Shown here: positions 22,423 to 58,263 of the stretch, one piece after another
How positions within the stretch are numbered: the first letter of the stretch is position 1
Layout: each line of letters begins with the position of its first letter
Source of the DNA: Acidobacteriota bacterium
GTDB taxonomy: Bacteria; Acidobacteriota; Vicinamibacteria; Vicinamibacterales; UBA2999
Assembly (NCBI GenBank): GCA_021730945.1
Contig: JAKFYH010000019.1
Location: forward strand, 1 to 64,000
Reading direction: 5' to 3'
Length of the DNA stretch: 64,000 nt
Position numbers and translations under genes: made by a program
Notes under the pieces: model-generated
Databases searched by the model: none
What the model was told of the DNA's origin: nothing
The model's input: only the letters and a program-made list of their open reading frames with translations

Positions 22423-22470
22423 CCACAGATGACACAGATGACGCGCCGCAGATGACACAGATGACGCAGA
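22423..22470. repeat. CAGATGACACAGATGACGC repeat running into the start codon of the next gene
   Basis: Two copies of a roughly 20-nt word (ACAGATGACACAGATGACGC, then GCAGATGACACAGATGACGC) follow each other, each itself made of the 9-mer CAGATGACA/G. The second copy supplies the start codon and the first residues (MTQMTQ) of the PHP-domain protein. The same word recurs at 49112-49276. Confidence 0.9.
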
Positions 22471-46968: not shown

Positions 46969-46969
<1 letters not shown>

Positions 46970-49089
46970 CACTTGGGGGCACTGGGCGACGGTGCGGCGC
47001 ATTTGCCGCCGCCCTTGGTCTGCGTGCGGATCTCGTCGTTGCCGTCGACTTGGACTCTATCGGACGCCTTGAAGAAGGTCAACGTCTTGCCGCTCAGCTC
47101 CTGGCAATCGGCGTCGATCATGGTGACCGGCGCACCGGTGACCACGTACTTCTCGTCGACCGGCACGTAGGTCAACCGCGCACCCGTGACCGTGCGCTTG
47201 TCGACGATCGCCTTGACCGTTCCCGTCGCGTCGAGCTGGGACAGGCTGTTCTCGCCGGCCGCGAGGCCAATCTCAATCTTGTCGGCGTGCAGGTTGCCGG
47301 TCTCGCCGTCGAGTTGGGCCAGCGTCTGGTAGACCGCGCGGCGCGACTGGTCGGTGTAGGTGAACGATCCGGCGCGGGCAATCGTCGGGGCGGAAGGGGT
47401 GCCGGCCACGGCGTCCCTGCGGATGATGGCCAGCGTGGTCAGCACCTTGCCGTTTGCGATCAAGTCGCCCTTGCTTTCATCAATGGTCAGGGCATCGGCG
47501 GTAATCTGGGTCTGGCCCTGCAGCAGCCGGACTTGCTCCTTGGCGGTACCCTTGTACTCGGCTCGCCGCGCCGATTCGTCGTAGACCAGGGCTTCGGCCA
47601 ACACGCTCACTGGCTCCTTGTCGCCGAGCAGTCCAGGCCGCTTACCCGCCGACTCCCCTGCTGCCGGTTTGCGCGGCGGCTGGAGGACGCTTCTGACTCT
47701 CCCGGCCGCCGCCATCTTTCGTGGACTCAGCGTGATCTCGAGGGCATCAGCGTCGATGGTGACCGACTCATCCTGGATGCGCGGCACGACCGTCCCCTCG
47801 CGCCCGCTGAGCGCCAGGGTGCCGGCAGCGATTTGGTAACGTGCCTGGTGGCTCGCCGCGACCAACGGGCCGTCGGTGAAGGTGAAGCCGCCGATGAACG
47901 TGGCCTCGCTCAAGCCGCCCGACGCCGGATCGAGGGCGGCATCCAGGCTCCGGGCCCGCGCGACCCGCGCGCCCTGGGTGCGGGTGGCCGCCTCGGTGTA
48001 GGTGACGCCTTCCTGGAACTTCATCAACGACAAGCCCTTGGCGCCGCCGGTGGCGATGAGCAGGCTGGACTTGATCGTGCGCGCCGCGGTGTCACGAGCG
48101 CCCGGCAGGGCGACGACGACGTTGTCGCGCGACGAGAGGCTGGTAACGCTGCCATCGGGCGCCAGCGCGACATCGAGCAGATCGCCGCCGAGGCGCTGCC
48201 CAGCCGCGCCGCCGGTGCCGCGCAACTGCAGCGAACCCTGCCCGATGAGAGTGGCCTGCTGCAACGAACGGCCATCGTCACCGTAGTCCAGGTTCATGTC
48301 GCGGGCGGCCATCGACTGCAGGGCGCCCAGCCCGGCGCCGCTGACCCGAGAGTCGCCGCGCAGTTCGATCAGGTCCGGTTCATCACGGTCCGGGAAGAGC
48401 GTCACGACAGCTTCGCCAGCATCGATGATCTGGCCGTCGCGGTCCATGTGCATGTTCCGCTCGAAGCGCATGTAACGGTCGGTCCTGGCAAACTCGAACG
48501 CCCCGGCGGTGACCGCCATGCTGGCGCCGGCCCCGTCTGGCGCGACCTGGACGTCGGCCTGGTCGAGCAACCACAGCGTGTCGCGCTGCTCATCGTAGGA
48601 AAAGCCGATGCCGGCGCCCGACATGCGGCCTCGCGTGAATCGTACCGGGCCGGGCGCGTGCACGATCTTCTCGGCGCTGGTGTACGACGCCTGGTTGGCA
48701 AACGCAATCAGGCCATCGGTGGTCTCGAGCTTGACGTCGCCGGTGACGTCAAAGCTGGCCTGGTCCTTGCCGACCCGCGCCTCCCTGGCCGTGATCACGT
48801 AGTTGCGGCCGGCGCGGTTGTCGATCGAGATCCGGACGCCCATCAACTTGGTGTCGCCGGTCTCGTAGGTGACCTGTCCCTGCGATTCGATCCGCAGATC
48901 CTGGCGGTCCCCTTTCAATTGAATCAGATCGGCCCCGCGCGTTTCGACCGTCGCCGTAGGGTCCAGCCGGTCGACCGGGGGCGGGGCCACGCGCACATCG
49001 CGCGGCCGCAGCGTGTAACCGACCACGCCGATGACGCCGACCGCCACTGCCGCCAGGGCCAGTTGGGCGCGCTTCTGCCAGGAACTCAC
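46969..49089 (-). CDS. LptC-LptA fusion: membrane-anchored LPS transport bridge protein
   Basis: The 706-aa product has one N-terminal transmembrane helix (about 9-26), an LptC-like domain (about 40-220, with [20 protein letters not shown]), at least one further OstA-like beta-jellyroll segment in the middle, and a C-terminal LptA-like domain about 580-690 ([20 protein letters not shown], then [20 protein letters not shown]). Separate lptC and lptA are usually about 190 aa each. Here a single chain would span periplasmic distance from the permease toward LptD. The GTG start 49089 follows the 37-bp repeat cluster. No lptD in the window. Confidence 0.85.
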
Positions 49090-49111
49090 GACTCAGATTG
49101 TACCAATATCT

Positions 49112-49276
49112 CCAGGGCCGCAGATGACACAGATGACGCAGAGGCAGGCCAGGGCCGCAGATGACACAGATGACGCAGAGACAGGCCAGGGCCGCAGGGC
49201 CGCAGATGACGCAAGTCAACGCGGTTCAAGATTAGAGCAGCCTAATCTGTGTTATCTGTGTCATCTGCGGCCCTGG
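49112..49276. repeat. 37-bp direct repeats with an inverted copy forming a 23-bp hairpin, between recJ and the Lpt fusion
   Basis: A 37-bp unit beginning CCAGGGCCGCAGATGACACA occurs at 49112, 49149 and, partly, 49186. The segment 49254-49276 is a perfect 23-nt inverse complement of its first 23 bases. In the minus-strand transcript any copy could pair to form a long stem-loop. The core word is the same as at 22423-22470. Confidence 0.9.
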
Positions 49277-49305
49277 ATGCCTGAAGGCATTCAGCACCAT
49301 CGGTG

Positions 49306-51015
49306 TCAGCGGAAGTCGTCCAATCGGAGTTCGAGATATTTGTCACCGCGGAATTCGTTTTCCTCCACGGTGTAGGCGATCTCGACCCCGGCCTTCTGCG
49401 CGGTGAGGTCGGGCTCCCGCTCAGCCGCGTTCCACTGAATCGCGCGCAGCACGCGGCCGTCCTGCTTGACGCTCATCTTGAGATGCCGTTCCTTCAGCAG
49501 GCGGGGGCCGTCGACGATCGCGACCGGCCCGGTGTGGAAGCGCGGCTTGGGATTGCTGGGGCCGAACGGCGCCAGCGCGGCGAACTCGGCCATCACGCGG
49601 TCGTTCAACTCATTCAGCTTCAGTGGCCCATCGAGCCATAGGCGCGGACGCAGGTCGTCTGGGCCCAGGTGGCCCTCGGCGTGGGCGTTGACCGCCTGGC
49701 GGAACTCCTTGAGGCGCGCGGCCTCGAGCTGCAGGCCGGCGGCCTGCTTGTGGCCGCCGAAGCGGCCGAGCATCGGTGCGCAGGACTCGAGGGCGGCGAG
49801 CATGTCGAATCCGGGAATGCTGCGGCACGACCCGTGGGCCACGCCGTCCTCGATCGACAGCACGATCGCCGGCCGATAGAAGGCATCCACCAGCTTCGAC
49901 GCGACAATGCCGATCACGCCGCGATGCCACCCCTCGCCGGCCACCACCAGCACGCTGCGGGCGCCGATGTCCGGATCCGACGCGACCAGCTTCTTGGCCT
50001 TGGCGAGGATGTCCTGATCCTCGGTGCGGCGGCGCGTATTCTCGGCCTCCAATTGGCCGGCCAGCGCCTTGGCCTCCTCGGCCATCGACTCATCGGCCGC
50101 GAGGAGCAGCCGGGTGGCGATGTCCGGCGTGCTCATGCGGCCGGCGGCGTTGATGCGCGGCGCCACCATGAAGCCAATGTGGTAGCTGTCGATGGTCTTG
50201 CCGGTGAGACCAGCCGCCTCCAGCAGCGCGCGCAGGCCAACCTTGTGCGGCCCCTTCGTCAGCATCTGCAAGCCGAGCTTGGCAATGATGCGATTCTCAC
50301 CCACCAGCGGAACGACGTCGGCGAGAGTGCCGATGGCGGCAATCTTCACGAACGCTGGTAACCACGCCGTCTTGCCCGTGCGCGCGCACAGCGCCTGCAC
50401 CAATTTCAGCGCGACGCCGACGCCGGCCAGGTTCTTGTCGGGATATGGGCAATCGTGACGCTTGGGATTGACCACGGCCACGGCGTCGGGCAACTCGCTG
50501 TCGGGCTCGTGGTGGTCGGTGATGATCAAGTCCACGCCCAGGCCGCGGGCGCGGCGGGCCGCCTCGGCGCCGCGAATGCCGCAGTCGACCGACACCACCA
50601 CCTTCACGCCCTCGCCGTGCAGGCGATCGATGGTCGCCGGCTGCAGGCCGTAGCCGTCGGTCAGGCGCTCGGGAATGAAGTGGCCGACATCGGCGCCCAG
50701 CAGTTCAAGCGCGCGGCGCAGGATTACCGTGGACGTAATGCCGTCGACATCGTAGTCCCCGTGCACCGCGATGCGTTCGCGTGCGGCAATCGCCGCCAGC
50801 AGCCGGTCGGCCGCCTTGCCGACGTCGGTCAGCCGGAAGGGATCGAGCAGTTGGTCGAGCGACGGCTTCAGGAACCGCGCCGCTTCGTCAGGATCGGTAA
50901 GGCCGCGAATGGCGAGCAGCCGTGCGGTGACCGGCGACAGCCCGAGGGCGTGGGCCAGTGCCCCGGCCTGCGCCTCGTCGTGAGGACGCGTGTTCCAGAT
51001 TGGAGGGACCGCCAC
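49306..51015 (-). CDS. recJ: single-stranded-DNA-specific exonuclease RecJ
   Basis: The 569-aa protein has the DHH domain (AVHGDYDVDGITSTVILRRA and the DHH motif in DLIITDHHEPDSE), a middle domain with the DHHA1-type block (GGHKQAAGLQLEAARLKEFR) and a C-terminal OB-like region. It degrades single strands 5' to 3' in recombination and mismatch repair. The GTG at 51015 follows the accA stop by one base. Confidence 0.95.
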   Translation of the reverse strand: MAVPPIWNTRPHDEAQAGALAHALGLSPVTARLLAIRGLTDPDEAARFLKPSLDQLLDPFRLTDVGKAADRLLAAIAARERIAVHGDYDVDGITSTVILRRALELLGADVGHFIPERLTDGYGLQPATIDRLHGEGVKVVVSVDCGIRGAEAARRARGLGVDLIITDHHEPDSELPDAVAVVNPKRHDCPYPDKNLAGVGVALKLVQALCARTGKTAWLPAFVKIAAIGTLADVVPLVGENRIIAKLGLQMLTKGPHKVGLRALLEAAGLTGKTIDSYHIGFMVAPRINAAGRMSTPDIATRLLLAADESMAEEAKALAGQLEAENTRRRTEDQDILAKAKKLVASDPDIGARSVLVVAGEGWHRGVIGIVASKLVDAFYRPAIVLSIEDGVAHGSCRSIPGFDMLAALESCAPMLGRFGGHKQAAGLQLEAARLKEFRQAVNAHAEGHLGPDDLRPRLWLDGPLKLNELNDRVMAEFAALAPFGPSNPKPRFHTGPVAIVDGPRLLKERHLKMSVKQDGRVLRAIQWNAAEREPDLTAQKAGVEIAYTVEENEFRGDKYLELRLDDFR

Positions 51016-58178: not shown

Positions 58179-58263
58179 CCGCTGATTCGATTTGCGAATG
58201 GGCGGCCGCAGATTAGGCTGATTCGGTCTGTTTCAGTCCTCACCTGAAAATCGGCGGCTGTGT
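58179..58263. other. short gap with weak hairpins between convergent genes
   Basis: The 85-nt gap has a 6-bp hairpin TTTCAG-tcctcac-CTGAAA at 58231-58249 and a longer-range pair GCCGCTGATT (58178-58187) with AATCGGCGGC (58249-58258), nine of ten bases. GCCGCAGATTAGGCTGATT at 58205-58223 resembles the CAGATGA word. It may act as a weak two-way terminator. Confidence 0.4.

Follow-up and report, generated by a model that had tools for sequence, protein, structure and literature searches.

A palindromic intergenic repeat between recJ and lptCA of an Acidobacteriota bacterium, and its probable kinship with units that enclose GxxExxY genes

Repeats in the recJ-lptCA gap

The window, by which we mean the whole stretch of 64,000 nucleotides of Acidobacteriota DNA that was analysed, carries recJ and an lptCA fusion gene on its minus strand. 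The gap between them measures 216 bp from ORF end to ORF end (49090-49305), just as the sequence-only reading had given it, and holds the short repeats. The features discussed here are as follows.

22426..22467, plus strand: second cluster of the repeated word, two exact cores, forward only
46969..49089, minus strand: lptCA fusion gene, with LptC and LptA/LptD_N domains
49097..49102, minus strand: TACAAT, resembling a -10 box and 7 nt upstream of the lptCA start codon, with a putative promoter role
49112..49148, plus strand: arm copy 1, with outer tail CCAGGGC and cores CGCAGAT, CACAGAT and CGCAGAG at 9-nt spacing
49149..49185, plus strand: arm copy 2, in tandem with copy 1, 97% identity
49186..49213, plus strand: third copy, truncated
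49246..49277, minus strand: inverted arm of 32 nt with 94% complementarity to copy 1
49306..51015, minus strand: recJ, with DHH, DHHA1 and RecJ_OB domains

The direct 37-bp repeats described from the sequence were recovered, as two full copies and a truncated third. The latter comprises a 12-mer at 49186-49197, and its 19 nt at 49195-49213 show 95% complementarity to the inverted copy. An inverted partner is indeed present, but the 23 bp first allotted to it are too few: the real arm extends over 31-32 nt at 94% complementarity. With this arm the unit in the gap is palindromic, its arms facing inwards.

A 19-mer core of the repeat has six matches in the window at up to three mismatches, against 0.01 expected from shuffles. 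Sharing of the core with 22423-22470, as originally proposed, is borne out, both copies at 22426-22467 being exact; that cluster sits in a 53-nt gap between co-directional genes (these gene calls, like those for the 1.26-Mb sample and the counts of bracketed genes below, were made with a home-made hexamer caller). The weaker sharing suggested for 58205-58223 did not survive, since no core match is found there at up to three mismatches. By eye, only CAGATTAGGCTG is common to that segment and the inner end of the inverted arm, making it a decayed copy at best.

The layout had also been read as a switch or attenuator, in which the inverted copy would pair with either direct copy in the recJ-lptCA transcript and thereby control lptCA. 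Alternative pairing of this sort is possible, and the repeat region folds far beyond shuffled sequences (z -6.0 on the minus strand and -8.2 on the plus strand), although strong folding of both strands is what an inverted repeat of such size is expected to give. Against a switch, the alternative duplexes, at -57.6 and -55.8 kcal/mol, were judged too stable to exchange, no terminator-like site was found, and the arms are not conserved among relatives, many of which lack them. Many unrelated genes, moreover, have the word between them, in both orientations and with no strand bias, and the TACAAT box lies downstream of the repeats, separating them from the lptCA start. The combination of conserved leader structure with a terminator or its equivalent, by which attenuators and riboswitches are recognized, was not found, and a search against Rfam returned miRNA models only, below their gathering scores. 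On these grounds the attenuator was rejected as very improbable; the repeat unit probably does not regulate lptCA.

The TACAAT box precedes lptCA in all nine members of the genus: its distance from the start is 7 nt in eight, as measured by script, and 8 nt in the ninth (L041), as measured by eye; the start-picking script erred at L041 and L043 and returned nothing for L042 and L052. In five further loci the box stands 6-11 nt before the start. It may well be the lptCA promoter box, in which case transcripts from it would exclude the repeats, which would lie upstream. A simple sigma-70 scan of the gap found no full sigma-70 promoter.

The word and the GxxExxY gene in the source genome

A genome-wide catalogue of the word and its orientation, proposed as a check in the sequence-only reading, yielded 302 matches at up to three mismatches in the 4.73-Mb genome, 185 forward and 117 reverse with tandem neighbours counted singly, whereas reversed-pattern controls in the same genome gave none and one. 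Although 92.4% of a 1.26-Mb sample was called coding, 27 of its 32 word clusters are intergenic, and word-bearing gaps are the longer ones, at a median of 184 nt compared with 67 nt for those without. Words show no preferred strand relative to co-directional neighbours (nine same, six opposite). Only three of the 32 clusters mix strands, all three forward then reverse. Because the other 29 lie on one strand only, full pairs are rare in the source genome, which counts against the reading that we favour below. The alternative already entertained from the sequence, a mobile word repeat, is supported by the number of matches, by their intergenic position and by the differing inserts in relatives' gaps.

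The source genome has one PF13366 gene, at C7, outside the window. It is flanked by six forward and one reverse copies of the word at no more than one mismatch and, among the 1022 genes of the 1.26-Mb sample, is alone in being bracketed inwards by the word; a forward word stands to the left of 21 of those genes, and a reverse word to the right of 11. The gene scores 121.3 bits against TIGR04256 (GxxExxY), for which the cut-off is 35. Its predicted structure (pLDDT 91.8) is best matched by 4ic1_G, SSO0001, which we take to be a Cas4, with Z 10.1; other PD-(D/E)XK proteins are tied at 7.6 or below. Among 66 GxxExxY sequences the K of the D, ExK and QxxxY residues never varies, and each of D, E, Q and Y reaches at least 90% conservation. 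GxxExxY is accordingly predicted to be a nuclease of RecB/Cas4-like PD-(D/E)XK fold. Foldseek returned no match to the model at E ≤0.001, and profile A3 none among PDB sequences at E ≤1. Two proteins submitted to PADLOC gave no match. The single GxxExxY query L111 matched none of 50,697 phage records and 7 of 72,556 plasmid records, all seven predicted to be non-mobilizable.

Across 30 GxxExxY loci of the source genome and its relatives, core pairs point mostly inwards: 44 left-forward and 43 right-reverse, against four left-reverse and six right-forward in the outward sense, with a background of 0.05 per 600-nt strand in stretches of the source genome. The mismatched-flank control (median 21.5 for own flanks and 12 for mismatched ones, whose 99% level is 129; two of the 30 rows dropped) is a weak one for GxxExxY since the loci share words. 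Presence of the gene also coincides with abundance of the word: 18 of 25 genomes with GxxExxY are word-rich, against one of 15 without (40 genomes, Fisher 6e-5), and outside the genus the figures are 9/16 and 1/15 (Fisher 0.006), the thresholds for word-rich having been chosen after the counts were known and the genomes compared being related. For these relatives' counts the reversed-pattern control is not valid, because a tandem word read backwards nearly equals itself.

Inward arms in relatives and in distant groups

The same gap was compared in the 25 of 30 loci, source genome included, whose stretch held both recJ and lptCA. The aligned ends of the two genes are 18 to 1380 nt apart; short gaps are without words and enlarged ones often have different words. 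Five of the 44 genomes searched (G001, G008, G017, G032 and G036) have a GxxExxY gene inside the gap, and in four of these inward words can be seen around it by eye, the left arm in G008 having CCAGGGCCGC in common with the window arms and the right arm CCAGGGCC. That of G017 has no words, which speaks against our reading. G000 and G006 have an inward arm pair in the gap and no GxxExxY gene. In a GxxExxY tree the gap copies and the C7 copy fall into one group of 14 with support 87/91; its interior is mostly unresolved, so that a single vertical lineage could not be shown. The gap may be a recurrent site of insertion. Other inserts were noted by eye: a CACGGAG word pair near a dioxygenase-like gene piece in G004 (L236/L041), and TTCACCGTTC-type words around a four-helix-bundle-like gene in G034 (L049).

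Further afield, we took the best 80 of at least 575 candidates as named GxxExxY loci, which, sorted by record titles, span 20 groups, or about 15 phyla, with archaea among them. Of these best 80, 75 have one inward arm or more and 51 have both; the five with none count against our reading. Inward core pairs in this set number 112 + 104 = 216 and outward ones 29 + 29 = 58, while distal windows of 43 of the loci contain 14 in all; the five loci with a flank shorter than 250 nt were dropped from parts of the arm counts. In 58/75 cases the match between left and right arm exceeds the 99% level of shuffles, compared with 0/43 distal pairs. Combining these best 80 with 15 relatives picked for having arms gave 66 two-armed loci, in which three cores per arm is the commonest number (44 left, 40 right) and the arms lie a median of 34.5 nt (left) and 26.5 nt (right) from the matched gene region. 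The same 66 gene-bearing loci show no target-site duplication, the direct match averaging 2.95, compared with 2.89 after reshuffling. That GxxExxY is bracketed inwards in many bacterial groups and in archaea is a strong and checkable regularity. No description of repeats bracketing GxxExxY was found in the literature searched, which did not extend to subscription journals and preprints, and the parts consulted of a paper on GxxExxY (PMC8934634) contain nothing on repeats.

Two order-level relatives, G044 and G040, have respectively at least 15 and at least five neighbouring opposite word pairs within 300 nt, by eye all forward then reverse, and a fixed rule finds both arms in 17 of the 20 fetched, which had been picked for being inward pairs. 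The palindromes of G044 (L266-L280) form a family of many members, each some 100-150 bp long; they have the tail ACGTACGCCAAC and CACGGAG-type cores, and their loops vary.

Several observations complicate the link between word and nuclease. All five GxxExxY loci of G044 are without the tail of its dispersed palindromes; in G013 and G020 the GxxExxY arms belong to a different word variant from those genomes' abundant words; and G019, 86% complete, is word-rich with no GxxExxY found. Each of these counts against our reading. Genes of a quite different kind, those for the four-helix-bundle 23S IVS protein PF05635 (L062-L069 and L238-L265), are likewise bracketed by inverted short tandem words: 29 of 35, against 2/30 distal and 83/1190 mismatched pairs, with a different word for most genes (one of 36 loci, L254, was dropped, and two matches, L069 and L257, lie below the Pfam cut-off). 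In the source genome seven of eight such loci are bracketed, the exception being L067. Literature on IVS and four-helix-bundle genes, again searched outside subscription journals and preprints, gave no such link to words. Taken with the tails of G044, the variants of G013 and G020 and the case of G019, the bracketing of PF05635 genes means that the GxxExxY nuclease may be a passenger.

Nature of the unit and comparison with known systems

We consider it fairly probable that the feature in the window is one copy, lacking the gene, of a palindromic, REPIN-like intergenic unit whose fuller form carries GxxExxY. Such a unit, interspersed between genes, has two inward-pointing arms. An arm most often starts on its outer side with a short tail (CCAGGGC in the window), followed by three 7-nt cores (CRCVRAK) at 8-10 nt spacing; in the fuller form the arms enclose one small gene, GxxExxY, some 30 nt from each. 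The units may move or be copied as palindromes, by way of DNA hairpins or single strands, and the RecB/Cas4-like nuclease may help to process or spread them. The window copy could then have arisen from loss of the gene or from spread of arms without it, together with a local tandem duplication of one arm. A bolder proposal, which we hold only tentatively and think rather doubtful, is that palindromic mobile DNA of a class not described before, found across domains, owes its spread to GxxExxY as the enzyme. Encoded between matched three-core arms, the protein would recognize or cut them and scatter gene-less pairs and single arms between genes, much as RAYTs do for REPINs but by unrelated chemistry, and the window copy would be one such offspring or remnant.

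The units might instead be passive palindromic repeats, moved or grown by host replication and repair, with the GxxExxY and four-helix-bundle genes as passengers or settlers. The similar bracketing of PF05635 genes, which do not encode nucleases and each have their own word, fits this well, as do the lack of target-site duplication and the local variation of arm number through tandem duplication. Such an account is nevertheless rather unlikely, given that one core motif is kept at a short distance from the gene in GxxExxY arms across about 15 phylum-level groups, that word-rich genomes coincide with GxxExxY presence and that the nuclease residues are conserved. Even were the gene a passenger, its inward bracketing would stand as a checkable regularity across bacteria and archaea.

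It is much less probable that the repeat is a REP/REPIN element spread by a RAYT (Y1 tyrosine) transposase, despite inverted doublets that are extragenic and of high copy, as REPINs are described to be in the part of PMC3116915 consulted, and despite five Y1_Tnp matches in the source genome. The word is absent from within 1.5 kb of all five at up to four mismatches, leaving a RAYT unsupported as mobilizer; strong inverted repeats of their own accompany three of them; and the arms, by eye, have no GTAG or CGTC end tag, a single arm not being itself palindromic. The Y1_Tnp (RAYT-like) genes with their own inverted repeats are L320-L322, of which L322 has a long array of tandem AGAGCGACGGCTTTAGCCGTCGCT palindromes next to it.

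Among known systems, the bracketed gene itself has a place, as a member of the GxxExxY family (TIGR04256, PF13366), a family known by sequence; if our reading is correct, this uncharacterised family acquires a hypothesis for its role. MITEs are gene-less palindromic units with terminal inverted repeats that occur beside a gene-bearing form, and gene-less palindromic copies accompany a gene-bearing form here too, but our units differ in having no target-site duplication (as tested in gene-bearing units) and no linked DDE transposase. The cyanobacterial STRR are intergenic short tandem words, lineage-specific and of high copy. The same can be said of the TAACTGA heptamer repeats of Beggiatoaceae, going by the portion of PMC4679880 seen; there, however, the repeats are direct, save for one inverted case at most, and that portion links them to neither GxxExxY nor four-helix-bundle genes, unlike the words described here. 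Were our reading true, a class of intergenic words would be tied to a gene.

In the way it works, the unit resembles a REPIN. REPINs and the REP-RAYT system, in the parts consulted of PMC3116915 (Bertels and Rainey 2011) and PMC3733652, share high-copy extragenic short repeats, inverted doublets capable of forming hairpins and one bracketed enzyme gene per system. Inverted, extragenic, high-copy doublets are found here as well, though only 3/32 sampled clusters mix strands. The GTAG (or CGTC) tag on a short self-palindromic repeat, part of the definition as it appears in the portion of PMC3733652 seen, was not found by eye, the arms being tandem 7-nt cores. Nor is any Y1_Tnp gene flanked by the word in the source genome (0/5), and since such a RAYT gene was looked for and not found, we do not file the unit as a member of REP-RAYT. 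The bracketed enzyme is instead the PD-(D/E)XK-type GxxExxY rather than a Y1 transposase, so that the units, if rightly interpreted, would offer a testable counterpart of REPIN-RAYT that uses a different enzyme fold.
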